Below, in pieces: positions 22,630 to 45,164 of a DNA stretch of 64,000 nucleotides. The first letter of the stretch is position 1. Each line of letters opens with the position of its first letter. The stretch covers positions 868,001 to 932,000 of the forward strand of contig NZ_CP050699.1 of the NCBI RefSeq assembly GCF_005116675.2, read 5' to 3'. The notes under the pieces were generated by a model. That model searched no databases, was not told where the DNA came from, and was given only the letters and a program-made list of their open reading frames with translations. Source of the stretch: Desulfosediminicola ganghwensis (lineage in GTDB: Bacteria; Desulfobacterota; Desulfobulbia; Desulfobulbales; Desulfocapsaceae). The translations under genes were made by a program, and so were the position numbers.

Positions 22630-23865
22630 CTAAAATTTCCAGCTCACATTCATGGAGAGAAAATATAGATCGTTATCTTTGAATTCGCCTATGAGCAGAT
22701 TGTTTTCAATCTCTGCCTCCCCGTAATAGGCATAGGTAAAGGCGCCCCCGACGTTGATATTCTCGCTCCAGGCATAGTTGAACCCGCAAGCCAGGCGAAT
22801 TTGTTCATCAAACGGCATGTCGACGGTTCTGTCCTTGGGATCATCAATGGGGTTGGTGTCGTAGGCGGCGCCAAATCGTAAGATCCAATCTTCGCCCATG
22901 GTGTACTGGAAGCCTGCGCCGAAATACCAGGTATCATCAAAATTCCGTGGCAGGCGCTGATCCCCTCTGGCGGTTGAGATGATAACATTTTCAAAAGCAC
23001 TCCAGTTCTCCCAGCCGATGGTGCCAAGAAAAGCCCAGTCTTCATTTATCTCATGAAAGAGGCCGAGTTTAATAAATTGTGGGAAGGTGATGGTGGCATC
23101 TATTCCGGCGGAGAGCGAAATCGGATCCAAGGTGACGTCGCCCCCAAAAGAGGGCTCTATCTCATAGGCATAGGATAAACCAATACGGGTTCTATCGGTA
23201 AACTCATACAGGGCATTGAGGTTGAAGGTGAACTCGGTATCATCGCCATCAATGTTCACCGAGCCGTCTTCCTGACCTTGTATTGGCACCGCAACTGTTT
23301 CGTCCAGGCTGCCGTACATCATGGCAACACCGCCACCGATGGAGAGTTTTTTGTTGACCCTGTAGGCGATTGACGGGTTTAAGCTGATTGTGAAAATTGT
23401 CACCTCCTCAAGCAGGTAGCGACCGGTCCAGTCGTCTTGAAAATCCAAAATGGCTGCGGAGATGGATATTACATTCAGACCAAGCTTCAGGTCATCGCTC
23501 AGGCTGTGCACATAAAAGCCGCCGAGAATAGGCCCCGGGCCACCCGCCTGGCCGCCGTCATTGCCAGGCACCGGGGTGTTGGGATCCGGATCAAATCGAA
23601 TATCGGTGTAGACAAGACCGCCGGAAAGCATGAGTTGGTTGCCTTCAAGACGAGTCATGCCTGCGGCGTTATGAAATGAGGTGGAGGCGTCGTCGGCAAG
23701 GGCTTGCGCCCCTGCGCCGGCAGTGGCCATGGTCGGTGTACCAAATTCGTTGAGGTACAAGCCTGCCGCTCCGGCCAAAGATGCCAAAACTAACTGTATG
23801 GCTAACTGTATGGCAATAGCCCCACAAAAATAACAGCTGATCACGAACGTTGTTGATTTCTGCAT
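22630..23865 (-). CDS. FadL/OmpP1-family outer-membrane transporter
   Basis: Encodes 411 residues with an N-terminal hydrophobic signal (to about residue 35). The mature start GLYLNEFGTPTMATAGAG, then ALADDASTSFHNAAGMTRLEGN, is the classic FadL hatch region (N-P/A-A-G-M/L). The rest alternates as beta strands, ending with an aromatic residue (NVSWKF) as outer-membrane barrels do. The family moves long-chain fatty acids or hydrophobic compounds across the outer membrane. AGGAGA ribosome site; own terminator; single-gene unit. Confidence 0.9.
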   Translation of the reverse strand: MQKSTTFVISCYFCGAIAIQLAIQLVLASLAGAAGLYLNEFGTPTMATAGAGAQALADDASTSFHNAAGMTRLEGNQLMLSGGLVYTDIRFDPDPNTPVPGNDGGQAGGPGPILGGFYVHSLSDDLKLGLNVISISAAILDFQDDWTGRYLLEEVTIFTISLNPSIAYRVNKKLSIGGGVAMMYGSLDETVAVPIQGQEDGSVNIDGDDTEFTFNLNALYEFTDRTRIGLSYAYEIEPSFGGDVTLDPISLSAGIDATITFPQFIKLGLFHEINEDWAFLGTIGWENWSAFENVIISTARGDQRLPRNFDDTWYFGAGFQYTMGEDWILRFGAAYDTNPIDDPKDRTVDMPFDEQIRLACGFNYAWSENINVGGAFTYAYYGEAEIENNLLIGEFKDNDLYFLSMNVSWKF

Positions 23866-24869
23866 ACTCTTCTCCTGTTTTTCTCTAGCACGGGTAGAAT
23901 TGTAGAGCCGAAATACAGATTGTAATCGGTGTTCTTACCACGAAACCTTGCTCGACGGTATTGCCGGATATGTATGGCGCAATACCGCACTGAGTTTACA
24001 TTCTGAATGTAGATCGAATGGCCGCGGTTATGGCGTGCTTGGCGGCCAGTGTGTTTCTGCGTGTAACTAAAAAACTTCTGGGTAATGAACGATGGACGAA
24101 GCGATAAAAAATCAAGAATACGCCTAATTCTTTCACAAAATCAGATTGGAAGAAAGTGATTTTTTCCAATCTCAAAAGCGGGTATGAAACCGCTGACAGC
24201 TCTTGTCAGGCCAGCGTGTTTGAGTCCATCCCTGGCAATGGGCCTAGCCGAAACATGAACCATGAATCATGATGAATTTCTTAATTATCTCTAATGGCTC
24301 TTCAACATTTGCAGTCGTTCAGCTTCTATGAATTATCTTAGGAGACTGAGATGTTGCATAGCGTTTTGGCTCAGTATTTTGGCTAGGCATGCGATGGCAT
24401 TATTGAATCTGATTCCCCCTCCCTCCTTGCTCCTCACGGCTTACTTCGTGAAGTTTAGCTTTGGTATTTAGAAGAAGATTATTGAAACTGTTGAGCCTCC
24501 AGTCTGCCCTCACCTACTTTAAGTAAGATTGGCTCTAAGTGACTAACGTCGAATGGTTTTGACTGGAGATAACTGAAACGGGGGCTACCTGTTTTCTGAG
24601 TATGCATTGGATACCAGGAACGGCAGCAATAACGCGCGGTGGTGGTAAAGAACCACCTTTTACAATAGTTTTTGACCAGAGGAGCGATGGGGGAGGTGTT
24701 GGTTGGCATGATTCTGTGAGTGGCTCCGGCGAGGAGAGCTATGCCTGTGATGCACTCCAGCAGGGCCCCCTGGCCGGTTTACAGATTTACTGGTAGCCAT
24801 ACGGCAGTTTACGGAATCACTCATCGTTTCATGGATATTCTCTATGAAACGATGAGTGATCGCAACAGC
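23866..24869. other. One-kilobase stretch without a recognisable gene
   Basis: Between the FadL-like promoter and the end of the sulfatase gene I see no ORF with a ribosome site and protein-like composition. Left part must carry the FadL-like promoter. The right edge holds the perfect hairpin at 24816-24860. Short open frames near 24479-24796 are not supported. Confidence 0.4.
24816..24860 (-). terminator. Perfect 17-bp hairpin at the end of the sulfatase operon
   Basis: ATCACTCATCGTTTCAT and ATGAAACGATGAGTGAT are exact reverse complements around an 11-nt loop, 10 bp past the sulfatase stop. There is no T-run, but the length and position make a transcription end or mRNA-stabilising structure likely. 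Confidence 0.65.
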
Positions 24870-26576
24870 TTAGTTGCCAGCTGATTCCACACCAAGTACC
24901 ACATCTTTGGCATCTCCATATATTTGGAGCCAGGTTTCAACCATTTTTTTAGATTCTGGTCGAATATTTTCAACATCTTCGTATGGCATGCCCCGGGCAG
25001 GTTTCCAGTCAGGGAACTTGTCCTTCATTCGCAGGTGCTGGACGCGCATGCGCACGAATGACGTACCTGCCCAGACGCCACCAGTCCTGAGCGGGTTTTC
25101 CTCGCGCGGATCCCAATACAGATTATAAATTCCGGCCAGGGCAGGATTGGTCCCCGGGCCCGGCCAGTGAATTTTCAACTGCTGCTTCACCGTCGCCCGT
25201 AATTGATCCATCTCGTAGAGATGGATGTAGTCTCTGCGGCCATGGGTGTCTCCCTTCAGCAGCAGAGGGGTCTGGTCGATACCATCCACGATCCTGTCTC
25301 GTGGGATGCCGTCGGTGTTACCTGCGATGCGGGCAAAAGTGGTGTACAGATCCCCAACGAAGATCATGTCACCGATCATCGAACCAGGCTCAATGACACC
25401 CGGCCACCTGGCAAAAGCGCCGACACGGTGGCCCCCCTCCAGCGAACTGCCCTTATGACCGCGAAAAATCCATTCAGAATAGCCGGACGTGCCGAGCTCC
25501 TGATACATCACACCATTGTCGCCCATCACGATGACCAGGGTATTGTTATCGACACCGAGATTCTCCAATTCAGCGATGAGCTCGCCAACGTAACCATCGA
25601 CAACCGCCATGGCGTTTACCCAGCGGCCGCCATTGGGGGTCTGGTTCTCATCATCGGTGGAACGAAGAACGGCGACGGGAATTTGTGGCCAGTAATTCAG
25701 GAAGAACGGTTTGTCTCCCTGGGCCAGTGTTCGCAGTGAATCGAGCGCCTGCTCCTGGAGCCGATCGTTGACACGCTTGTAGAATTCCATGTCAGGCCGT
25801 TGACCGGGCTCGATCCCCCATTCACGCAGTTTTCCACCTTTTTGGCCCTCGACCTGGGTCACCCAGTCGTATAAACGAAAGGTCTTGTCGAGTCCATATT
25901 CAGGGTCGATAGCCTCGGGCGTGAAGGCCGTGGTTTTTCCATCAAGTTCAGCGTCACGTGTGGTGAAACTGTATGAGACCTGATTGTGCATCGGGAACGA
26001 GGCGTAATCGAAACCCTGATTGATTGGATAGGCTTCCTTGATATCCCCCAGATGCCATTTGCCGATATGATGTGTGGCGTAGCCTGCCGCAGACAGCAGC
26101 TCAGCTATTGTGATCTCCTTACCGTTGAGGCCAACTCCCTCCGGTGGTGTGACCTTGGTGACTTCCATACCGGTTCGGACAGCGAGTCGGCCGGTCATGA
26201 ATGCTGCTCTGGTCGGAGTGCAAATGTTTTCCGCGTACATCCGCGTAAAGGTAACACCCTCGCTGGCAAGTTTGTCGATGCTGGGTGTTCTGCCTCCGCG
26301 GACCTTGGTCAATGCCGGAATTCCGTACTCACCAAAGCCCATGTCATCAAGCAGAATGTATATGATATTAGGCCGTTTGCCACCGTTTGCGCTGCGGATT
26401 TCAGCGAGCATGTCGTCGATTTCCTTATCCTCCGCCGCCCATTGATCCTGGTACTGGTGGAGAAGAACATAATGCTCAGAATCATGCTGGATGGGTGCTG
26501 CCTGTTCTGCCGGGGAGGGAGCCGGCAGGAGCAGCCAAACCAGTAAAGCGGGTAACAGCAACGTTCTGGATCTCAT
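24870..26576 (-). CDS. Type I (formylglycine) sulfatase, exported
   Basis: Encodes 568 residues from ATG at 26576 (AAGGAG), which opens a signal peptide (MRSRTLLLPALLVWLLL). Metal ligands N70...D77-D78 (NIIYILLDDMG). The maturation motif C119-T-P-T-R carries the cysteine converted to formylglycine. Further conserved pieces are IGKWHLGD, FFLNYWPQIP and VMGDNG. It hydrolyses sulfate esters in the periplasm; substrate unknown. Because C119 is a Cys-type site, it needs an FGE or anSME enzyme; the FGE-like gene at 1609 lacks the usual cysteine pair and anSME is not in the window. Downstream of the outer-membrane protein gene at 26695 in one operon. Confidence 0.93.
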   Translation of the reverse strand: MRSRTLLLPALLVWLLLPAPSPAEQAAPIQHDSEHYVLLHQYQDQWAAEDKEIDDMLAEIRSANGGKRPNIIYILLDDMGFGEYGIPALTKVRGGRTPSIDKLASEGVTFTRMYAENICTPTRAAFMTGRLAVRTGMEVTKVTPPEGVGLNGKEITIAELLSAAGYATHHIGKWHLGDIKEAYPINQGFDYASFPMHNQVSYSFTTRDAELDGKTTAFTPEAIDPEYGLDKTFRLYDWVTQVEGQKGGKLREWGIEPGQRPDMEFYKRVNDRLQEQALDSLRTLAQGDKPFFLNYWPQIPVAVLRSTDDENQTPNGGRWVNAMAVVDGYVGELIAELENLGVDNNTLVIVMGDNGVMYQELGTSGYSEWIFRGHKGSSLEGGHRVGAFARWPGVIEPGSMIGDMIFVGDLYTTFARIAGNTDGIPRDRIVDGIDQTPLLLKGDTHGRRDYIHLYEMDQLRATVKQQLKIHWPGPGTNPALAGIYNLYWDPREENPLRTGGVWAGTSFVRMRVQHLRMKDKFPDWKPARGMPYEDVENIRPESKKMVETWLQIYGDAKDVVLGVESAGN

Positions 26577-26694
26577 TATAAATCTCCTTGTGTTGTCGTC
26601 CACCTGCCCAGCCTGACCAGGGGTGCCAGTATTCGTAATGAACCGATGGCAGGCACCATAAGTTCCACAGATACCCATGCATTTGGGACAGGTT

Positions 26695-27765
26695 TTATTG
26701 CATCCAGCTGAATAATGCCGACGGGGCTGCGGGGATAATCATAAAACGGACATCCCATTCAGCCCCGACCACATCGTCGGGTGTAATGACCGAATAGTGT
26801 GCTTCAAGCGCGAATCGAACCGGTATCTTGCCGAATTGGATTGTTTTGTTGACGCCAAAGCCGACAGGGACTGTCCACTCGTTCCCGCTGCTCTGCTCCC
26901 AGTTGGCGATGATATTCGGCCCGGCACCGAGTGATGTTGTATCGTCCAGCGCGTAGTAGACGAAATACTGCAGGTTGGTCAGATTGACATCATTACGGTC
27001 ATCATCATCAAAACTCCAGTATTGCTGCAACAGCCCTCCGATTTTCCATTTGGGGCCAAGATAGGCGTAAAGAGCAGAGGGCCCCGCAGACCAACGGCCT
27101 GTGCCGAGCACATCCTCCGTTGCTGTTGGCAGCCCAAGATCGAAGCCGAGTCCCCAGACAGAGGTGCCGCCGGTTTCATGCTTTATCCCTGCTTTCGGGG
27201 AAAGGAGCCCCACGTAATACATGTCTCCAAAACCTGTGGTGCGACCATCAAAGGCCTGAACCGGAAGCAAGGGGCCGTTGCTGTCGGGGGGGAGGATCGG
27301 GCCCTGGCCCTCACCATAGTCGCTACCTGCCCCGGCGGCGTCGATTTTATCCTGATCCAATGGCATGCTCGGGACTGTAAAAACAACCCTGTTGATGATG
27401 TTCCATTCTCTTCCGATTCCTTTGGGAAATTGCAGGATACCGGTATAGCCACTTTTTACTTCGTCTATACCGGTGGCTGGGTCTTCCATGAAATAGACGT
27501 CGAACTGGTTGATGAACATGGCCACATTGCCAAGCGGGTTGTCCATGAGCTTGGACATCTGGCCGGTCGTAGGTTCACAGCCGGCCCCGAGAATCTCTCC
27601 CAGATCAGCGTTAATGTCGGAACGGAGGCGCCGACATTCTTCGGTCAGGTTGGGATCATCCATACTTGTGGCAGTACTTTCCGCGTAGCTGGTGTGAGTG
27701 ATTAAGATTGACAATATCAGAAGCGATGATGTTCCTAACCAATTCAAGACTTCCCATTTTGTCAT
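26695..27765 (-). CDS. Outer-membrane protein of the sulfatase operon
   Basis: Encodes 356 residues with signal peptide (about 1-28) and a GGAGGGG ribosome site. The C-terminal two-thirds alternate hydrophobic and polar residues with many Gly/Tyr/Trp (GFGDMYYVGLLSPK, WGLGFDLGLPTATEDVLGTG, FGVNKTIQFGKIPVRFALEA), as in MetA-pathway/porin-like barrels. Such proteins often sit next to sulfatases and may import the sulfated compound. The N-terminal segment has a Cys pair (EECRR, GAGCEP). It is followed by the sulfatase after 118 bp. Exact family uncertain. Confidence 0.75.
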   Translation of the reverse strand: MTKWEVLNWLGTSSLLILSILITHTSYAESTATSMDDPNLTEECRRLRSDINADLGEILGAGCEPTTGQMSKLMDNPLGNVAMFINQFDVYFMEDPATGIDEVKSGYTGILQFPKGIGREWNIINRVVFTVPSMPLDQDKIDAAGAGSDYGEGQGPILPPDSNGPLLPVQAFDGRTTGFGDMYYVGLLSPKAGIKHETGGTSVWGLGFDLGLPTATEDVLGTGRWSAGPSALYAYLGPKWKIGGLLQQYWSFDDDDRNDVNLTNLQYFVYYALDDTTSLGAGPNIIANWEQSSGNEWTVPVGFGVNKTIQFGKIPVRFALEAHYSVITPDDVVGAEWDVRFMIIPAAPSALFSWMQ

Positions 27766-33515: not shown

Positions 33516-34938
33516 ATGAAGAAATTACTGCTGGTTCTTTGCTTTTTGTTTTTCGGCAATGTTGCTCTAGCCAGTGAGGAGCTTTCGGAAATAGACGATG
33601 TGCAGGAGCGATTCGTTTATGATCGCATGTTCCCGATCTGGGGACAGGAAGCATACGATCGTGGGCATGAATTACCGAAACCTTATGTTTTATCAGGGAT
33701 GTAGGCATAAACCTCGATGGCAGTTTCGAGGTGGAGCAACGCCTCACCAATAAGTGGAATACTATCACCGGTGGCCAGGTAGGAGTGACGGATAACATAG
33801 ATCTCCTCATTGAAGCCGGCTTCGGTGATCGCCGCAGCCTGATGCTTGGACTTGGCTATCGGTTATACCCGAGGCTGTGCGCCCTTGCTGCGCTGTGGGC
33901 AATTCACAGAAGGTTCAGGTCGCAGGTCTTCAGGTACCGCTGTTTCGATACGCAAACACCCTGGAGTTAGACAGCCTTGGCGCTCATGCATATGAGGCAG
34001 GTGTTTTAAGTTACCAGCGAAAAGAGCCCGGGGGGCGCCGCGCCACTGAGGGCAACGGGCAGATCTATACCTTGCGCGGCGGCTTTATTGACCTTGCCCA
34101 TGTGCGGGATACAGCGGATAACACTATCGCCCTTTTTCAAAGAATATTTCGGGATCTGGGTGAATCACAGACTATCTCCCTACCTGAAGAAATTGGCCCC
34201 AGAGAGATCCGGCTCACCGCATTTGACAGCAGTGAGTTGAGTTCGCAGCAACGATTGGAGATCAGTGCGCAACTGGCAGCACGGCAGGCGTATTTCATGG
34301 CTGAAGCTCATGAACTGGCCCAGTGGCATGGTTATCGCAGCTGGAAACCCTGGTCGGAAGCTGTATCAGCGTACTCATTCGAGGATCTGTATTCAAATAT
34401 GCTGGGCGCCAAAATCGCCTATGCCCTGATCGTCAATAACCTCACCACAACCCGTGACCAGTATAACCAGCACATGACCAGTTGGCTGTATGCTGTCCTT
34501 GAGCAGCTCGGAGCGGTTGAACAGGACAGGACAGACTTGCTCTGGGATGTTGTCGATGGTCATTGGTGGGACTCCCGTAAGCCGCTGCCGGAAAAGTTTA
34601 TGCTGCTGAAGCGTCATTACCAGATGGGAGACAGTCAAAGTCCCTATCTGGTACCGAGATCTCTCGCCGAAATTCACAATGGCTGGTCTGAGTTGACGGA
34701 TTTTTATCTCGAACCAGCGGCTCCACTGCATTTGCGCTTGCCCCGGCAGGTGCATGGTTACCAACTGGATACTTTGGCGGTCCAATGGCTTTGGGTCGAG
34801 GCCGGGTATCAACTCTCCTTTTCCCATATTCCGAAAGATATCTGGCGTAATGGTTTTACCCAGGAGGCGTTTGGCCGAATAGCGAAAGAAAACAGGAGAG
34901 TTGACCAGATGGAACTACAAAAACAACAGAATGATTGA
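33516..34938 (+). pseudogene. Frameshifted gene(s): signal peptide/barrel-like segment followed by DUF4056
   Basis: Three reading frames in succession hold protein-like sequence. 33516-33685: signal peptide (MKKLLLVLCFLFFGNVALA) and ERFVYDRMFPIWGQEAYDRG. From about 33690 in another frame: GINLDGSFEVEQRLTNKW, then VGVTDNIDLLIEAGFGDRR and LMLGLGYR, a beta-strand-like stretch. From about 33860 in a third frame: PEAVRPCCAVGN, VQVAGLQVPLFRYANT and GGFIDLAHVRDTADNT, which is DUF4056, to the stop at 34938. Each change equals loss of one base. It may be one gene, or two adjacent genes, with either real mutations or sequencing errors. DUF4056 function unknown; N-terminal signal implies a periplasmic product. 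Confidence 0.65.
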
Positions 34939-36102
34939 AATGAAAGTATTTAAAAACGCAATGTTATCGGCAGCGTTCGGGGTAAGTGTTCTGGTGTTTT
35001 TACCGGGTAACACCTTTGCATTCGGTGAAGAGGAGATGAGTGAAGGGTTTGTTTCCGACTTGCTTGAGCGGCTGGGTGCGGATGGGGAGTATGACCCTGA
35101 CAAAACAATCGACTTCAGTTTTCTGCCGGGTCCATTTTACAGCCCGGATAAAGAGTTCGGCCTGGCCCTGGTCGCGGTAGGCGCCTATCAGCCGGGTGCC
35201 TATGACCCCAATACACAGCTCTCATCGCTTGTTATCACCAGTTTGGCATCAACCAACGGCTCCTATGGTCTGGAAGTATCCAACAAGAGCTTTCTCAACT
35301 CTGACAGACAGCGGCTCTATTTTGATGTGGAAATAGCCAATGAAGCCCGGGATTATTATGGAATCGGCTACGACCAGAATCGTAGCGGTGGTAATCAGAC
35401 ATCGATCGATAACCAGCTGTTTCATGTGCCCCCTATGTTCATGCAACGGGTTGCCCGGGACACCTATCTGGTTTTGGCTATGACTTCAATTACCAGAAGG
35501 CCAAGGGGGTTGAGGAGAGCGGAACGGATCTGGATTTGAGTGAGCTTATGAGTTCTGGTACCAGTTCGGGACTGACCGTGCTCTTATCCCATGACAGTCG
35601 AGACATGGTCACTAACGCGCATAGCGGTAGATTGATTCAACTGGAAGGCTCCCTTTACCGCAAAGATCTCGGAAGTGACAGTAACTTTGAAGTCGTCAGG
35701 GCTGAATACAGCGATTATCAGCGGGTCGGCCGGGGCGATGATGTCGTTGCCTGGCAGGCCTTTGGCCGTTTTACCATGGGTGATGTCCCTTGGTACCAGT
35801 TTTCTACCGCATGTGGCTCAGACCATCTTCGAGCATATCAGCAGTCACGTTACAGGGATAAACACTTCGTCATGGCCCAGGCTGAATACAGATATAATCC
35901 TGCCGGTCGACATGGACTGGTTGCCTGGGCGGGAGCGGGAGCCATTGCGCCGAGCCTTGATGAATTCCATGCAGACGAGATATTACCGACAGCAGGAGTC
36001 GGTTATCGCTTTGAAGTGAAGCCAAGAATGAATCTGCGCCTCGATCTGGGTTTCGGTGATGGGGAGAGTGGGTTCTACTTCAATATCAACGAAGCGTTTT
36101 AA
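34931..36102 (+). pseudogene. D15/Omp85-type outer-membrane protein with one frameshift
   Basis: Starts at ATG 34931 or 34940, with signal peptide (KNAMLSAAFGVSVLVFLPG) and then FLPGPFYSPDKEFGLAL and GYGIG-type strands typical of bacterial surface antigen (D15) barrels. Reading breaks at about 35470-35472 (ctggttttggc): adding one G gives YLGFGYDFNYQKAKGVEES, which runs smoothly into the second half (SELMSSG, LSHDSRDMVTNAHSG, CGSDHLRAYQQSRYRDKHF, LDLGFGDGESGFYFNINEAF). The corrected protein is about 390 residues, ending in an aromatic residue. It overlaps the DUF4056 stop by 8 bp, so the two were co-transcribed. Confidence 0.75.
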
Positions 36103-38474: not shown

Positions 38475-40301
38475 TTGAGAACCACCATTCGAACTTTTTT
38501 GCTGCTTGTAACTTTGTTGCATTCCGCACCCTATGCCAATGCGGACTGGGTGAATTTTACCGGTGCGGAAAATGCGAGGAATATTGCGGAAATTTACGTG
38601 AACCGGGATCACGTAAAAATCAAGCTGGAGATATTTGTTGAAGATTTACTGCTTTTTAAAGAGCTTATCCCAGACGAGCTGTTCCGAAAAGCTTCCCATG
38701 ACAGGCCCGACCTTGGCGAACGGCTGCAGCGATTTTCCGAAAAACGGTTGCAGATTTCAACCGGCAGCGGTGGCAGGCTGATACCCCGGCTCGATCTGGT
38801 TGAACCGAGATTGCGGGTGAAACGCACCTCGCTCTTTGCCGGTAAGCTCAACCCTTATACCCGGCGGCCGATCCCCGGCCCGCCTGACGATAAACGGGTG
38901 CTCTATGTGGAATTGACCTATCCCTTCACCCGGCGTCCGGATTCACTGACCATCATCCCTGAGCTGGATTCAAGAGGGCTTCCAACTGCCTCGATCGGTT
39001 TCATCTGTTATCACCAGGGGGTACCGGTGGTCGATTTTCGCAACCTGACGTCCAGCAACACTGTCAATCTCGACTGGGATGATCCCTGGTATTCGGCTTT
39101 TGAAAAGCGTCAGCTCAAGCGTGCGCTGCAGGCCGGTGTTCGCACCTATCTCTATATCGAGCCGTACGAAGTGCGCCACGAGATACTGGTGCGCGTCAAG
39201 GACATGATGAGCTGGCTCGACTTCAGCCTCAAGGGGAATGAGTTTATCGAAGAAGAGGAGTTCGACCGGGTTCGGCAGCAGGTCGCAAAGTTTTTCCTGG
39301 AGCGGGAAAATGTGCTGATCGACGGCAAGAGGCTCAAGCCGATACTCGACCGGACCGCCTTTGTGGAATCTTCGCCGACCTGGAGCCGTTTTATCGAGAT
39401 CCCCGAGCGGTTAACGCTCAACACCGCCATGGTTGGTGTGGTCATCACCTACCTTACCGAAGGGATTCCCCAGGAAGTGGTTACCAGCTGGGATCTGTTT
39501 TCCGAGCGTGTCAATATGGTGGCTGCAGGCATGACCGATCCGGCGGGCCCCTTTCCATACTCTCTCACGCCGGATGACAATATTCTGAGGTGGAGAAACC
39601 ACCTGAAGCAATACCGGATACCCACAGTGAATAGCGTTGCTGTGGCCGACAAACACAGAGGTTTCAGGCTGTCTGTAGTAAGCCTGGTCTGCGGTTTGCT
39701 GGTCATTGTGCTCTTGATTGTCGCTGTTATCAGATACCGGCAGGAGAAGAGGATCAAATATCACCTTGCTGTGATAGCTCTACTTTTACTCATCGGCGGC
39801 ATCATGCTGCCCCATTTTCGAATTTCCATCGGCTCCCAGGCGCGGGCGGGCTGGATCGGTTCGGAAGATGCCAGGCTGATAACCCAAAGCCTCTTGAAGA
39901 ACATCTATCGGGCCTTTGATTTCAGAGACGAGGAGGATGTTTACGACAAGCTGGCAATCAGTGTCAGCGGTGAGATGCTCTCGAAGATCTATCTCGAGAG
40001 CAGAAAATCGATGGTGATAGAGCAGGCCGGAGGTGCCCAGGCGAAGATAAAGCAGGTGAAGGTGCTTGCTGCTGAGGTGGTTGAGGCAGTCAGGCAGGAA
40101 GGTGAACTTGATGTCAGGACAAGGTGGGCCGCCCTGGGGAAGGTGGGGCACTGGGGACATGTGCACATGAGGCAGAACGTTTATGAGGCGATCCTCACCA
40201 TCGGTGCGGTGAATGGGTCCTGGAAAATCATTGGCATCGAAGTGCTGGGGGAGGAGCGGGTTGCTCCCGGGTCAACAGGCTATGAAAGACCAACGGATTG
40301 A
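38475..40301 (+). CDS. Large inner-membrane protein of unknown function, first gene of ABC/TroA-like operon
   Basis: Encodes 608 residues. The only start consistent with the signal peptide (MRTTIRTFLLLVTLL, ends near ANA) is TTG at 38475. Residues 24-395 form a large periplasmic domain with no family I recognise; two membrane spans follow (about 398-419 and 429-445) with a short basic loop; residues 446-608 are a second periplasmic domain (YDKLAISVSGEML, AKIKQVKVLAAEVVEAV) with an alpha+beta, NTF2-like look, which is only an impression. Overlaps the ABC ATPase start by 15 bp. As it leads the operon, it may be a periplasmic partner or substrate receptor of the transporter. Confidence 0.75.
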   Translation: MRTTIRTFLLLVTLLHSAPYANADWVNFTGAENARNIAEIYVNRDHVKIKLEIFVEDLLLFKELIPDELFRKASHDRPDLGERLQRFSEKRLQISTGSGGRLIPRLDLVEPRLRVKRTSLFAGKLNPYTRRPIPGPPDDKRVLYVELTYPFTRRPDSLTIIPELDSRGLPTASIGFICYHQGVPVVDFRNLTSSNTVNLDWDDPWYSAFEKRQLKRALQAGVRTYLYIEPYEVRHEILVRVKDMMSWLDFSLKGNEFIEEEEFDRVRQQVAKFFLERENVLIDGKRLKPILDRTAFVESSPTWSRFIEIPERLTLNTAMVGVVITYLTEGIPQEVVTSWDLFSERVNMVAAGMTDPAGPFPYSLTPDDNILRWRNHLKQYRIPTVNSVAVADKHRGFRLSVVSLVCGLLVIVLLIVAVIRYRQEKRIKYHLAVIALLLLIGGIMLPHFRISIGSQARAGWIGSEDARLITQSLLKNIYRAFDFRDEEDVYDKLAISVSGEMLSKIYLESRKSMVIEQAGGAQAKIKQVKVLAAEVVEAVRQEGELDVRTRWAALGKVGHWGHVHMRQNVYEAILTIGAVNGSWKIIGIEVLGEERVAPGSTGYERPTD

Positions 40302-40977
40302 AACGATGATCAGGCTGAACGATGTTGAATTTTTCTATCCCGGCGGAGATTTTCAGCTCTCTGTAGCTGAATTGCGTATTGATCGGGGAGAGAAACTTGC
40401 CATCATTGGGCCAAGCGGTTCGGGCAAAACTACGCTGCTGAACCTGGTTGCCGGCATCCTGCTTCCCGGGGCGGGAATGGTCACGGTAAACGGTTTTGAA
40501 ACGGTTGGTGCTTCGATTTCGACGAGAAGGAATTTCCGTATAACCAATATCGGTTTTATCTTCCAGGATTTTGGACTTATCGACTATCTGAGGGTGATGG
40601 ACAATATCCTTCACCCCTTTCGGGTGAGCAGTGCGCTCAAGCTGAATGCCGAGGTGCGGCAAAGAGCCCACTGGTATGCGGAGCAGTTGGGAATTGCGAC
40701 AAGGCTTCATCATCACCCGGCCGATCTCTCCCATGGTGAGCGGCAGCGGGTTGCCATCTGCAGGGCACTGTTGCCGGGCCCTGAGGTAATTCTGGCCGAT
40801 GAGGCGACGGGAAATCTCGATCCAGAAAATAAAAGACAGATCCTGCAGCTGTTGTTTCAGGCCGTGGACGAGCAGGGTGCCACGGTCCTGGCTGTAACCC
40901 ATGATCATGAGCTGCTCCAATACTTTGACCGGGTAGTCGATTTTCGGGACTTTTTTGCCGCTAAGGAGGAGGTATGA
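40287..40977 (+). CDS. ABC transporter ATPase, LolD/MacB type
   Basis: Encodes about 229 residues; ATG at 40284 or 40308 are alternatives close by (internal start in MKDQRIETMIRL). Walker A GPSGSGKTT, Q-loop FIFQDFGLIDYL, signature LSHGERQRVA, Walker B VILADEAT, and H-loop VTHDHE. The short single-domain form and the FtsX-like partner place it in the type VII (MacB/LolCDE/FtsE) group, which uses ATP to drive periplasmic conformational work rather than classic import. The stop overlaps the permease ATG by four bases. Confidence 0.9.
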
Positions 40978-42149
40978 ACAGCTTCTATCTTGCCTGGCAA
41001 TATCTGAAGTTCAACGCCTCCAAGTCGCTGGTTATCCTGGCTTGCATCACCATCATTGCCGTATTGCCTCTGGCGCTCGAAATTCTTCTCCAGGAGAGCG
41101 AGCGGCAGCTGGCTCTGCGCGCTGAAGCGAGCCCCCTGCTGCTCGGCATGAAGGGCAGCGCCCTGGATCTGGTGATGAATTCCCTCTATTTCAGCGATGA
41201 AGCCCCTGAGGCGATGAGCATGTCCGCAGTGGAGGAGGTGGCAGACAGCGGCCTGGCCGGCCCCATCCCGATGCATGTGATGTTTGAGGCCCGTGACTTT
41301 CCCATTGTCGGTACCTCTGTCGATTACTTTTCCTTCAGGAAGCTTGAGCTCGCCGCAGGGGATATGTTTACCATGCTGGGGCAATGCGTTATCGGCGCCG
41401 AGGTGGCCAAAAGCCTGAATCTGGCTGTGGGAGACAGCCTGGTCAGCTCCCCGGAGACCATGTTCGATATCGCCGGTGTCTATCCCCTGAAGATGCAGAT
41501 CACCGGTGTGCTGGAGCCGGCCCACAGCCCAGATGACCGGGCTGTCTTCGTCGATGTCAAGACCGCCTGGGTGATCCAGGGACTTTCCCACGGCCATAAG
41601 GACGTCACCCGTACCGACGACAGCACGGTAATCCTGAAGCGTGAGGAGCAAAACGTCACCGCCAACGCCAAGCTCATCGAGTTTACCGAGATCACGGAGG
41701 CAAACATCGGTTCATTTCATCTGCACGGCAAGCCGGACTCCCTGCCTCTCACCGCCGTGCTGGTGGTGCCCAATGACGAAAAATCGGGCACCATCCTCCG
41801 CGGCAGGTATCTGGAGCAGGAGACAACACTGCAACTGATACGCCCCAAGGATGTGGTCGATACCCTGCTGGCCACGATCTTCAAGATCCGCAATGTGCTC
41901 GATGCGGTTATTCTGCTGGTCGGATTCGCGACCATGCTGGCGCTGCTCCTCGTTTTTTCACTGTCGTTGAGGCTGCGCGAAAAAGAGATCGAGGTCATAT
42001 CCAAACTTGGCTGCAGCAGGATGACCACCGTGAAGTTGCTGGGCGCCGAGATAGTTTTACTGATTCTGGGCAGTTCTCTGGTCAGTGCAGTTATCCTGGC
42101 GGCGATCAGACAGTATGACCGGTTACTGGTAACCAGTATGTTCATTTAA
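40974..42149 (+). CDS. FtsX-like ABC permease
   Basis: Encodes 391 residues. One N-terminal span (about 17-39: LVILACITIIAVLPLALEIL), a long periplasmic domain (about 40-300) and a C-terminal bundle beginning ILLVGFATMLALLLVFSLSLRLREKEIEVISKLG, which is the conserved FtsX/MacB cytoplasmic turn. Only two spans follow, giving three in all; MacB-type proteins normally have four, so the last span seems missing or atypical. ATG overlaps the ATPase stop (ATGA), and AAGGAGG lies just upstream. Transported or extracted substrate unknown. Confidence 0.87.
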   Translation: MNSFYLAWQYLKFNASKSLVILACITIIAVLPLALEILLQESERQLALRAEASPLLLGMKGSALDLVMNSLYFSDEAPEAMSMSAVEEVADSGLAGPIPMHVMFEARDFPIVGTSVDYFSFRKLELAAGDMFTMLGQCVIGAEVAKSLNLAVGDSLVSSPETMFDIAGVYPLKMQITGVLEPAHSPDDRAVFVDVKTAWVIQGLSHGHKDVTRTDDSTVILKREEQNVTANAKLIEFTEITEANIGSFHLHGKPDSLPLTAVLVVPNDEKSGTILRGRYLEQETTLQLIRPKDVVDTLLATIFKIRNVLDAVILLVGFATMLALLLVFSLSLRLREKEIEVISKLGCSRMTTVKLLGAEIVLLILGSSLVSAVILAAIRQYDRLLVTSMFI

Positions 42150-42174
42150 TAATAGCTCAAAGAGGAACAACGCC

Positions 42175-43077
42175 ATGGCCAAAGCATGTACTCTGCTCTT
42201 GTTTCTGTTTTCCGTGTTGTTGCCTGTTGCAGGTTACGCCGAATCACGACTGCAGGTTTATGTCGTCAACTATCCGCTCGCCTATTTTGCCGAGCGGATC
42301 GGCGGCGCCAATGTCGAGGTCGTGTTTCCGGCACCTGCCGGAATCGATCCGGCTTTCTGGCTGCCGGATAAGGCGACAATCAGTGGCTACCAGAATGCCG
42401 ATCTCATTATTATAAACGGCGCGGGGTATGCGAAGTGGCTTGATAATGTCAGCCTGCCGATGCTGCGCACCATCGACAGTTCCAGGCAATTCCGGGACAA
42501 GCTCATCGAGACCGAGTCCACGGTCACTCACAGCCATGGCCCGGGAGGCGAGCATTCCCACACCGGCATAGCGTTTACCACCTGGCTCGATTTCTTCCAG
42601 GCGGTGATGCAGGCAGAGTCGGTTTACCAGGCTTTCGTCCGCAAAGATCCGGCGAATACGGCAGAATATGCGGCGAATTTTGGCAGCTTGAAAGAGGATT
42701 TGCAGGAGCTGGACCGGCGCATGACCGCCGCCTGTGCGAAAAGCGATGGGGTTCCGTTACTCGGCTCCCATCCGGTCTACCAGTACCTTGCCCGACGCTA
42801 TGAGCTGAACCTGGAGATGGTGATGTGGGAGCCGGGCGAGGAGCCTGGGGCTGGAGAATGGCAAAAGCTCGAACAGCTGCTTGCGCATCATCCGGCGAAA
42901 GCGATGCTCTGGGAAGATACGCCCCTGGCGGAGTCGGGGCAGCGGCTGGCGGAGCTGGGGGTTGAAAGTCTGGTATTTTGCCCCTGTTTTGCCCGACCGG
43001 TAGAGGGGGATTTTCTTTCGGTTATGAGCAGCAATGTGGCAAATATCGAATGGTCGTTTGGTGTGGCAGCTGAGTGA
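42175..43077 (+). CDS. TroA/ZnuA-fold periplasmic protein with degenerate metal site
   Basis: Encodes 300 residues with a signal peptide (1-22). The order of blocks follows metal-binding proteins of the TroA/ZnuA family: VVNYPLAYFAERIGG, IDPAFWLPDKATI, ADLIIINGAGYAKWL, a His-rich loop HSHGPGGEHSH (119-129), FTTWLDFF, GSHPVYQYLARRY (H199), and LWEDTPLAES. Compared with ZnuA, the first His (DPH) is A60, the second (DPHxWLD) is T135, and the final Asp region is replaced by CPC (269-271). Only H199 of the core ligands is evident. It may bind a different ligand or metal. Last gene of the operon; 25 bp after the permease. Confidence 0.85.
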   Translation: MAKACTLLLFLFSVLLPVAGYAESRLQVYVVNYPLAYFAERIGGANVEVVFPAPAGIDPAFWLPDKATISGYQNADLIIINGAGYAKWLDNVSLPMLRTIDSSRQFRDKLIETESTVTHSHGPGGEHSHTGIAFTTWLDFFQAVMQAESVYQAFVRKDPANTAEYAANFGSLKEDLQELDRRMTAACAKSDGVPLLGSHPVYQYLARRYELNLEMVMWEPGEEPGAGEWQKLEQLLAHHPAKAMLWEDTPLAESGQRLAELGVESLVFCPCFARPVEGDFLSVMSSNVANIEWSFGVAAE

Positions 43078-43105: not shown

Positions 43106-43146
43106 AACTGGCATCAAGCCTTGAGGAAGGAAGCTTGATGCCAGTT
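43106..43146. terminator. Perfect 14-bp hairpin between convergent genes
   Basis: AACTGGCATCAAGC and GCTTGATGCCAGTT are exact complements around a 13-nt loop, lying between the end of the rightward ABC/TroA-like operon (43077) and the end of the leftward gene at 43166. Likely a bidirectional terminator although T-runs are short. Confidence 0.65.
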
Positions 43147-43165: not shown

Positions 43166-44488
43166 CTATTTCTTCACATCAGCGGGATAGGTGAACTCCC
43201 GTCCCAGTTTCTTGCTTGCCTCCTGGTAAATCGGCCGCAGTACATCGTCCACGTCCCACACCCCTTCGGCGATAAAAGGGCTGAAGTCCAGACTGTCCAC
43301 ACCCAGCTTTTGGGCCTGCGCTTGCCTGTCTTCAGGTTTTGGTGGTTCGGCCGGGCTGGCCAGGGGCGGTGCCCAGGTATGGTGGTCGACTTCGGCCATA
43401 CGCACCCGGATCTCATCCTTGGTCACATTCCACACCATGTAGTCTTCGGCCAGGCTTAACGGTCCATCGTAGGTTTTGCGGATGCGCTCGTATACGGCGG
43501 CGGTGGTGTCGTAATCCTTGAAGAAGTGGTAGGCGATCGCCATGCGCGGCTTCACCTCGCTCATGATTTTGCCGAAAGCCTCCGGCGCGGTATGTACCTG
43601 GGTGCCGACCATCAGCGCCGATTCAGGCGTGAAGAACATCTTGGTTACCAGGTCGGGCACCGCGACGAAGCACTCGTGCACCACCAGGTCGGCATCTTGG
43701 GCGTACTCGATAAACCACTTGTTGGGGTAGGTATCGCTGGAAAAGACAAACTTCAATCCGTTCCATTCCAGACTGTAACTGACCGAGCCGTCTATTGCGT
43801 GGATGGCAGGGAAAGAACGTATCGTCACCCCGTTATCTTCATAGACCACAGTGTATTCGCCTTTATAATCGAACTCATTCACCTCAAGCTTGTAACCACG
43901 AAAATCGATTAATCCGACTCTGCCGGCCAGATCCCAGGTGAGCATTTTCAGCATACTGTCCATGGCATACTGGGTACCCAGTTCGGGTGAGGCACCGTTT
44001 GGGCCCCATATTTGCAATGGCACGTTGCGACCCATCAAGGCACCGCCGATGAACAGGTCATGCAGCGCACCGAAATGGTCGGTGTGCAGATGACCTATGA
44101 AGACCTTGTCGAGATAGTTGTAGGGGATCTGCAGGGAGCTGATCCGCTCGGCGGAGCCGGAGCCGATATCAAACAGGAACTTGTCGCCGTTGCCCAACTC
44201 CACCAGGAAGCAGGCGGCCGCCTGGGCGGCGCGGGTGGTGGGCATACCTGTACCGCAGGCTACGACCCGCATTTCATCAGGGGCCAGATCTTCGCTATTC
44301 GGGTAGTACGTGTCCCGCTCCCGGGCCTTGGTCGGTGATACTTCCACCTCATTTCCCTGTGTTTCTTCCGCAAGCGCATGTTGTGGTCCCATGCGGGGGG
44401 AAGTTCTGTTGATGCCGTCTGAATGGCCGAACCAATAGCCGATCGAGATGAGAAATAGGGCTATGGTTGGTAGCAGGAACTTTTTCAT
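43166..44488 (-). CDS. Exported metallo-beta-lactamase-fold hydrolase
   Basis: Encodes 440 residues with N-terminal signal or anchor (about 1-22). MBL metal motif GHLHTDHFG (H-x-H-x-D-H), upstream LFDIGSGS, then HECF and AYHFF with further ligands. The length and segments such as VPLQIWGPNG and SSDTYPNKW resemble RNase Z-like MBL proteins that automated pipelines label GntH (guanitoxin pathway); I see no other guanitoxin gene, so that name would overreach. Periplasmic location is unusual for RNase Z relatives. GGAGATAAC ribosome site. Single gene. Confidence 0.82.
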   Translation of the reverse strand: MKKFLLPTIALFLISIGYWFGHSDGINRTSPRMGPQHALAEETQGNEVEVSPTKARERDTYYPNSEDLAPDEMRVVACGTGMPTTRAAQAAACFLVELGNGDKFLFDIGSGSAERISSLQIPYNYLDKVFIGHLHTDHFGALHDLFIGGALMGRNVPLQIWGPNGASPELGTQYAMDSMLKMLTWDLAGRVGLIDFRGYKLEVNEFDYKGEYTVVYEDNGVTIRSFPAIHAIDGSVSYSLEWNGLKFVFSSDTYPNKWFIEYAQDADLVVHECFVAVPDLVTKMFFTPESALMVGTQVHTAPEAFGKIMSEVKPRMAIAYHFFKDYDTTAAVYERIRKTYDGPLSLAEDYMVWNVTKDEIRVRMAEVDHHTWAPPLASPAEPPKPEDRQAQAQKLGVDSLDFSPFIAEGVWDVDDVLRPIYQEASKKLGREFTYPADVKK

Positions 44489-44945
44489 GGCCTGTTATCT
44501 CCCTATTTTTAGTGTAAAAACATTTTCCTGGTCCAGGTCATGTCACCAAGGTGAGAAAGTTGCCAGGCAGCGGTGCCTGACCTCAGGGACTATGAAATAC
44601 AGATAAAACTGTATGCTTCAGTTTAGCAATGGGAGTGAGAAATGGCAAATGTGGGGAGGGGTGCGGGGAGGTGTATTCATACGACGCATCGACTATGGAG
44701 CAATAGCTGATGCCTTGCTTTAAGGAGAGGAATATTTTGAATAATGACAAAACCTGATGGTATATTTGGTTGTCAGGTTGTCAGGTTGTCAGGTTGTCAG
44801 GTTGTCAGGTTGTCAGGTTGTTGTGGAGAAAGTGGGTTCGGCAAAACGTGGTGATTGGCGGATGAACTGGTTTGTTCCAACAGATGCCTGTAGAAATAGT
44901 GTCACCATTTCAGGATATTCTATCAAATGAGGCTGGAGGAGAGAA
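44489..44945. other. Intergenic region with octanucleotide repeat
   Basis: Holds the promoter side of the leftward MBL gene and, on the right, the tandem repeat at 44771-44818 about 130 bp before the truncated barrel gene. No other gene seen. Confidence 0.5.
44771..44818. repeat. Tandem octanucleotide repeat (TGTCAGGT x6)
   Basis: Six exact copies of TGTCAGGT in a row, then partial TGTTGT. Perfect copies imply recent slippage, so copy number is probably variable between strains. It lies upstream of 44946, where it could alter promoter spacing, or may be neutral. Confidence 0.9.
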
Positions 44946-45164
44946 ATGAAGCGGATTATTTTGGGACTTTTGGCGCCGCTATTGATCTGGTGCGGCAGCA
45001 CAGCCTCGGTACAGGCAGGCTCCGACCGACGCTCGAACGAATGGCACTACATGTTGGCGCCGATGTTTCTTTGGGGCATAAGTGTCGACGGTACCGCCCA
45101 GATCGGGCCGGTGGAGGCACCTCTTGACCAGGCTTTATTTTGCACACCTCATTTTGCTTGTTAA
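44946..45164 (+). pseudogene. Truncated 5' end of an outer-membrane protein gene
   Basis: ATG at 44946 follows GGAGGAGAG. It encodes a signal peptide (KRIILGLLAPLLIW) and the mature start NEWHYMLAPMFLWGIS with DGTAQIGPVEAPLD, typical of a barrel family I have seen as proteins of about 250 residues. After APLD the frame reads unrelated residues and stops at 72 codons. The rest of the barrel is absent from the following DNA, which instead is open on the minus strand (NFIGDGQWIPAINKQ) without a recognisable product. Consistent with a deletion or recombination junction near 45124. Confidence 0.65.

Follow-up and report, generated by a model that had tools for sequence, protein, structure and literature searches.

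A window of 64,000 nucleotides from Desulfosediminicola ganghwensis (bases 868001-932000 of a genome assembled as a single contig of 5.65 Mb) was analysed; positions below are those of the window. Between 38475 and 43077 it holds four intact open reading frames (ORFs), all on the plus strand, encoding a protein of 608 residues (A608), an ATP-binding cassette (ABC) ATPase (B), a permease (C) and a TroA/ZnuA-family protein (D). Judged by their sequences, these products would form a type VII (Zrg-like) ABC variant with an undescribed partner protein.

38475..40301, plus strand: A608, 608 residues, TTG start
40282..40977, plus strand: B, ABC ATPase of the FtsE/LolD/MacB class, from family matches and alignment
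40974..42149, plus strand: C, MacB/ZrgB-like permease with three spans, 391 residues
42175..43077, plus strand: D, TroA/ZnuA-family periplasmic protein, 300 residues

The original prediction, which had linked four genes at this place, is borne out by these intact ORFs and by a gene order conserved across loci, and both its 4-bp overlap between B and C and its 25-bp gap between C and D are right. The 15-bp overlap that it gave for A and B was not reproduced: the longest ORF of B spans 40213-40977 (254 residues), and a start at ATG 40282 gives an overlap of 20 bp, whereas ATG 40306, which alignment to relatives favours, lies 4 bp past the stop of A and leaves no overlap.

Component proteins and their kinship with Zrg

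The ATPase B matches ABC_tran (E-value 2e-28) and falls in the FtsE/LolD/MacB class. The permease C matches MacB_PCD (E 2.4e-8) and, below threshold, FtsX (E 0.0064, profile positions 3-70 of 120), while the library search gave no match to the ABC-3 family; weak profile matches to FtsX (E 0.11) and YbbP (E 0.49) were obtained in the Protein Data Bank (PDB). A MacB-like periplasmic domain after span 1, FtsX-like spans and an FtsE/LolD-type ATPase were all found, as in the type VII ABC superfamily. In all 21 core permeases the chain stops soon past the third span and the fourth is missing, in agreement with the earlier claim of one span fewer than in MacB. A hydropathy count gave three segments in 18 of these permeases and four in the other three (L008, L016 and L079, labels of this kind denoting loci), in which the extra segment is a split or periplasmic one and none is located past the third span. 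By the same count four segments were found in all five Zrg-like permeases and in the four scored MacB_PCD matches of the host genome, which has six such matches besides C (L002 and L007 were left out). No member of the 21 deviates from C at His206, His208, His249, His251, Asp187 or Asp188.

Among the closest described systems is ZrgABCDE of Vibrio cholerae. It is a zinc uptake operon with a zinc-binding protein, ZrgA, of non-TroA type, and in V. cholerae lacking znuA the zrgA gene is required for growth and survival under zinc limitation (PMC9820375; the gene list is given in PMC9817125). Its permease ZrgB is described as MacB-like, with four transmembrane segments and a large periplasmic domain (PMC9820375), and an FtsX/MacB-type permease in metal uptake therefore has a precedent. 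A profile of nine core C proteins aligned with five Zrg-like permeases, Vibrio ZrgB itself not included, at an hhalign probability of 99.8% (E 3.3e-28), over residues 10-378 of C and with 21% identity in 343 columns. One of the Zrg-like permeases (L051) is encoded in an operon with ZrgA (8e-54) and DUF3299 (3e-46), and another (L050) lies with DUF3299. In the whole host genome ZrgA (PF10986) gave no match, the positive control G376 being detected, and none of the four proteins matched DUF3299, the ZrgE family, with an E-value of 1 or lower. Because the permease is distantly homologous to the Zrg-like ones but ZrgA is absent from the host genome, the system is best described, at the level of sequence, as a separate branch near Zrg and not Zrg itself.

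In Shinella and Paracoccus an alkaline phosphatase gene precedes the Zrg-like permease gene. In L028, L029 and L030 an alkaline phosphatase gene and a gene for a small CPxC protein stand ahead of the Zrg-like ATPase and permease genes, with no adjacent ZrgA annotated; these loci are possibly another pairing of an ABC system with a metalloenzyme.

D belongs to Pfam ZnuA (PF01297, E 4.3e-37, 128.5 bits against a cut-off of 29), and its profile matched 53 distinct PDB sequences (best E 1.6e-39). With C outside ABC-3, it is indeed unusual, as had been proposed, for a TroA-family protein to have a permease of the FtsX/MacB type as its partner. In D of the window the first canonical histidine is replaced by Ala and the second by Thr, the third being kept. 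Among 11 D proteins the first position is Ala in ten and Val in one, the second is Thr in ten and His in one (L026), and the third is kept in nine and lost in L015 and L026. Every one of the 11 has thus lost two or more of the three canonical histidines. The other two ZnuA-family proteins of the host genome retain all three, and the five best PDB matches of D have His at the first two ligand places. A His-rich loop, HSHGPGGEHSH in the window, occupies the position of the loop in the host genome's own ZnuA; its four-His form is kept in 10 of the 11 proteins and is missing in L047.

A608 starts with a signal sequence, recognised by eye, followed by a region of about 370 residues that we read as periplasmic, two predicted spans (401-419 and 427-445) and a C-terminal domain carrying HWGHVH, an HxxHxH motif. 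In an alignment of 20 rows, two of them N-terminal pieces, the motif is present in all 18 rows that cover the site; three of four further copies also have it, and the sequence of the fourth (L103) stops before it. Variants occur in L016, without both spans, and in L026, with one N-terminal span, and the gene is damaged or partial in L008 (an apparent frameshift split), L043 (stretches of N), L077 (a remnant) and L026 (the C-terminal domain only). The window protein had no match in NCBIfam and chance-level ones in Pfam (best E 0.077), 17 members had weak Pfam matches only (best E 0.012), and in the PDB the A608 profile matched nothing with E at or below 1; by these libraries A608 appears to be an undescribed protein family. 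A relationship of its N-terminal region to DUF4198/NikK or to NikL was rejected (hhalign 0.5% and 0.2%), as was the identification of its C-terminal domain with DUF3299 (probability 0.1% against a five-protein set including two DUF3299 proteins). The profile searches suggested for each protein thus returned an ABC ATPase, a MacB/FtsX-type permease and a ZnuA-family protein, and no family for A608. The accompanying claim that no known family has this set is not supported, since it overlooks ZrgABCDE (PMC9820375), although A608 and D have no counterpart there.

Distribution and conservation of the locus

Relatives of C were taken from one genome-contig scan, plasmid records and whole-genome searches; outside the host's own phylum the sources were the contig scan, limited to close relatives, and the plasmid records. 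The scan returned eight relatives, in metagenome-assembled genomes of Desulfobacterota, Gammaproteobacteria and Planctomycetes, and the plasmid records added others in Methylomagnum and Paracoccus. In total 28 loci with C were tabulated, L017-L019 and other search loci being replaced by longer stretches; L085, from a genome of the host's order, duplicates L015, a contig of a metagenome-assembled Desulfobulbaceae genome, and was dropped. Contig ends restrict many of the neighbourhood counts, and coverage is unequal among loci. B adjoins C in 25 of the 28 loci, D lies 3' of C in 21, and A, whole or in part, lies 5' in 18. The four-gene order, which the original prediction had proposed to seek in other genomes, is the same in Desulfobacterota and Gammaproteobacteria and partly so in Alphaproteobacteria, and the linkage of the four genes is not due to chance.

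Five of the seven loci without D have fewer than 200 bases past C, and the other two (L012 and L013) have 8 kb with no D. A is absent despite about 8-9 kb of upstream sequence from L012-L014, L044, L045, L047 and L083, and with 2-4 kb from L084 and L086; in L015 the sequence does not extend upstream. The loci L047 and L086 are themselves decayed or partial. The Planctomycetes loci (L012-L014) hold B and C only, the sequence of L014 ending 47 bases past C, and in all three a divergent gene next to B and C encodes, by eye, a sialidase-type repeat protein.

In a set of 11 loci the pairwise distances of the four components A, B, C and D are correlated, with coefficients of 0.84-0.96; the set includes two loci where a contig end truncates A and omits L008, L043, L077 and L082, which have a broken or cut gene. 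Such values would fit joint inheritance and also a shared species history. The distribution of the system is patchy. C was found at E 1e-30 in 14 of 257 genomes of the class, three being partial matches at contig ends, and A608 in 11, ten of which have C (two A608 fragments, in G553 and the second of G427, are outside the locus comparison). In a sample of 395 genomes of the phylum 11 match C at E 1e-20, six of them with the core type; the other five matches are weaker and cover the N-terminal half only, and the two inspected are Zrg-like. Three genomes of the same genus gave no core-type match to C, two of them having distant ones only.

The neighbouring hydrolase and metal-related genes

Three further features lie 3' of the operon:

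43106..43146, no strand: perfect inverted repeat with 14-bp arms, seen by eye; D and the hydrolase gene converge on it, and it may end transcription from both sides
43166..44488, minus strand: GntH-like metallo-beta-lactamase (MBL)-fold hydrolase, 490.2 bits, HLHTDH motif, signal or anchor by eye
44940..45125, plus strand: short truncated copy from a family of presumed outer-membrane proteins (about 60 residues aligned, 31% identical)

The hydrolase exceeds the curated cut-off of the GntH family (NF041257) of 333 bits, its HxHxDH motif is intact, and an N-terminal signal or anchor is visible; the family match does not imply a role in guanitoxin synthesis. It is the only copy over the cut-off in the host genome; at 2.2 Mb there is a weaker match, which is interrupted. 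Eight of the 257 class genomes encode such a hydrolase (E 1e-80 or better), all of them among the 14 with C, an overlap with a chance probability of 7e-12 by genome and 6e-8 by genus when relatedness is ignored; most of the six genomes with C and no hydrolase are incomplete assemblies. In this class the association of the system with a secreted metallo-hydrolase is strong. Within 12 kb of C the hydrolase is found in 5 of the 28 loci (the window, L008, L048 with three copies, L076 and L077), which are 5 of 14 when at least 5 kb of sequence is available on both sides. Four of the seven C-linked hydrolases (those of the window, L008 and L076 and one of L048) group with that of L114 with support 90/92, and the remaining two of L048 and that of L077 fall outside this clade.

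A608 copies apart from the ABC genes show a similar neighbourhood, five of six (L027 and L101-L104) lying at most 3.4 kb from a GntH-like hydrolase gene; that of L104 is about 12 kb from ABC genes on the same contig, and the sixth (L113) has no hydrolase in 8.9 kb of sequence. A TetR gene is present in four of these five loci, and a set of TetR, one or more GntH-like hydrolases and A608, with the ABC genes not adjacent, recurs in L101, L102, L104 and L027, that is, in Desulfobacterota genomes and a Rhodobacteraceae plasmid. Genes for arylsulfatase, FadL-type, patatin and presumed outer-membrane proteins recur around the hydrolase and A608. In the window itself, 22630-27765 on the minus strand encodes a FadL-type outer-membrane protein, an arylsulfatase-like protein and an unnamed protein of 356 residues (62% like L048:1420-2253), and two of these three kinds of gene recur in each of L103, L104 and L109, loci of other genomes with GntH-like hydrolase and A608. 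The family of the truncated copy at 44940..45125 is also represented in L049, where its gene separates A from B, and in L077, close to the operon; directly ahead of the copy, GGTTGTCA-type short tandem repeats form a run at about 44770-44840. Two adjacent plus-strand ORFs at 34901-36102 (212 and 188 residues, the first without a Pfam or NCBIfam match) resemble, on visual inspection, a single gene for an outer-membrane barrel that a frameshift has divided in two.

Several neighbours are related to nickel. In L008 a NikL-type gene separates C from D (E 4e-19, 69 bits), and in L026 another stands at the operon end (E 4e-14, 53 bits), the family cut-off being 100; together with two DUF4198 (NikK-type) genes the latter flanks the L026 operon. 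In nickel importers NikK and NikL serve as additional periplasmic components (PMC545781, PMC2667541), and orphan copies and likely cobalt cases have also been reported (PMC2667541). In L016 the opposite strand carries NikR and TonB-receptor genes beyond the 3' end of the operon, and the lone A608 of L027 is near urea-uptake and urease genes. The host genome has a separate nickel-type locus of the energy-coupling factor (ECF) kind (L052, G000:C1:250000-262000), which includes a NikK-type gene and NikL (185 bits). Upstream of it is an exact copy of the inverted NikR site known from Desulfotalea psychrophila, GTAACAC-N13-GTGTTAC; another exact site lies at 1274 kb. A scan allowing up to two mismatches gave 9 sites against 8 in a reversed-pattern control, and therefore only the two exact sites count. 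Control of the four-gene operon by NikR was rejected, there being no site at the operon, and no shared palindrome upstream of A is recognisable among the relatives.

Proposed function and known systems

We tentatively favour a Zrg-like, ATP-driven periplasmic system for the acquisition of a divalent metal. A metal is supported by the His residues conserved in A608, in C and in the loop of D, with zinc and nickel/cobalt about level, and since Zrg serves zinc acquisition, a MacB-like type VII member can act in metal uptake. The kinship of C with Zrg-like permeases, the nickel-related neighbours in L008, L026, L016 and L027 and the correlated distances of the four components also count in favour. 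Gene order, families, conserved residues, the missing span, the lost ligands, the Zrg-like kinship and the hydrolase link are observations; metal binding, assembly, direction and the choice of metal are inferred. Two copies each of B and C would form the core, as expected of the type VII class, B hydrolysing ATP and C coupling this to motion of its periplasmic domain, in which the invariant His and Asp residues may act as a metal relay. D, with no standard deep metal site, might use its His-rich loop to gather metal, or a complex of it, and A608, anchored by two spans and facing the periplasm, could hand metal to C through its HxxHxH domain. The end point would be the cytoplasm or a secreted metallo-enzyme, acquisition being favoured.

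Several observations weigh against acquisition. Type VII ABC machines are described as performing mechanical work outside the membrane and not as passing substrates across it (PMC12646458), and the loss of two of three canonical histidines in D is odd for a metal-binding protein of the TroA/ZnuA family. Besides its ECF nickel-type locus, the host genome possesses loci of the ZnuA and TroA types in which the canonical ligands are intact. The absence of a NikR site from an operon in a genome with exact ones speaks against nickel. Zrg is Zur-controlled; here the single Zur-like match, a weak one at 38506 with two mismatches, is compatible with chance and absent at the start of the relatives. In addition, the surroundings of the linked hydrolase, with TetR regulators and sulfatase/FadL-type genes, hint at an organic substrate.

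The hydrolase association raises the possibility, in our view an unlikely one, that nothing is imported into the cytoplasm and that metal is supplied to, loaded into or regulated in secreted metallo-enzymes, chiefly the GntH-like hydrolase; ATP used by B2C2 would then drive A608 and D, by analogy with FtsEX/EnvC or YbbAP/TesA. This would agree with the confinement of the hydrolase, within the class, to genomes with C, with the clade formed by four of the seven C-linked hydrolases, with the nearness of five of six lone A608 copies to such a gene and with the alkaline phosphatase genes 5' of the Zrg-like kin in Shinella and Paracoccus. All of this, however, is gene linkage alone, three C-linked hydrolases stand outside the clade, 6 of the 14 class genomes with C have no hydrolase, and 23 of the 28 permease loci have none within 12 kb of available sequence, including all those of Gammaproteobacteria, Methylomagnum and Paracoccus and some of Desulfobacterota (L044, L083); moreover, two operons contain NikK- and NikL-type genes, which accords with uptake. 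A bolder version, which we regard as doubtful, is that a three-span type VII machine spends ATP on metal delivery or control in secreted metallo-hydrolases, with A608 as a dedicated partner of the GntH-like enzymes and D as a His-loop carrier or chelate receptor; if so, the kin paired with alkaline phosphatase would represent the same idea with another enzyme.

Rather improbable, too, is an organic or lipid substrate or breakdown product, for instance a hydrophobic compound drawn from the membrane for the hydrolase, the ligand of D being an organic molecule or a metal chelate instead of a bare metal ion. The lost ligands of D, the recurrent neighbours of the hydrolase and A608 (TetR, arylsulfatase, FadL-type, patatin and presumed outer-membrane genes), and the precedent of YbbAP-TesA, a type VII ABC system with a hydrolase acting on hydrophobic compounds (PMC12646458), would suit it, but it leaves aside the invariant His clusters of A608, C and D, the kinship with Zrg-like permeases and the NikK-/NikL-type genes of two operons. 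An ordinary ZnuABC/TroABCD importer with a misjudged permease, or a MacAB-type exporter, is most improbable: although D falls in Pfam ZnuA, C is a three-span MacB_PCD protein outside ABC-3, D lacks the canonical ligands, no MacA-type gene is among the four, and the genome has separate ZnuA- and TroA-type loci. The original suggestion of periplasmic handling of a metal, cofactor or lipid by a mechanism unlike known uptake thus survives in part, metal handling being likely from the His clusters, while the novelty of the mechanism is reduced by the MacB-like permease of Zrg; the loss of most of the canonical metal site in D and the tie to a GntH-like hydrolase had escaped it.

The Zrg paper (PMC9820375), as far as consulted, does not settle how a MacB-like permease contributes to metal uptake. 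If metal acquisition is correct, the C family would be a second metal-linked branch, with a three-span permease, a TroA-family protein without the usual site and other partners, and could therefore separate the needs of the permease from the contribution of ZrgA; the hydrolase link also makes metallation of periplasmic enzymes by such machines testable. In the open-access literature searched, which leaves out most subscription papers, neither a description of the four-gene set nor a report of an association of an A-B-C-D type system with a secreted metallo-hydrolase was found.

Among known systems, MacAB-TolC, LolCDE, FtsEX-EnvC and YbbAP-TesA, all of type VII, share the class of permease and ATPase, but C has three spans and not the usual four, and unlike in MacAB-TolC the ATPase is a separate gene. 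To our knowledge none of the four is paired with a TroA-family protein or with A608. FpvC of Pseudomonas aeruginosa is a member of the TroA family, FpvDE is taken to be an ordinary importer, and FpvCDEF is not known to include A608 or an MBL hydrolase. The likeness lies in a metal-binding periplasmic protein with membrane and periplasmic partners, FpvC acting after the metal is freed, in iron release and uptake for pyoverdine (PMC6954188). ZnuABC, TroABCD and MntABC, importers with a cluster A-I binding protein, resemble the locus in the family of D, by sequence and with its His-rich loop, and differ in the canonical histidines, of which D lacks at least two of three, and in the ABC-3 type of permease. 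NikK- and NikL-type proteins in two operons of the C family recall the NikMLKQO/NikKMLQO nickel-cobalt importers, in which the core transporter is of the ECF type; the host's own ECF locus is separate, at 255 kb. ZrgABCDE, also present in V. parahaemolyticus and with a ZrgA homologue, PA4063, in P. aeruginosa, differs in its four-span permease and in having no counterpart of A608 or of the TroA-family D, and shares with the present system a MacB-like permease, an ATPase, periplasmic partners and a likely role in metal handling.

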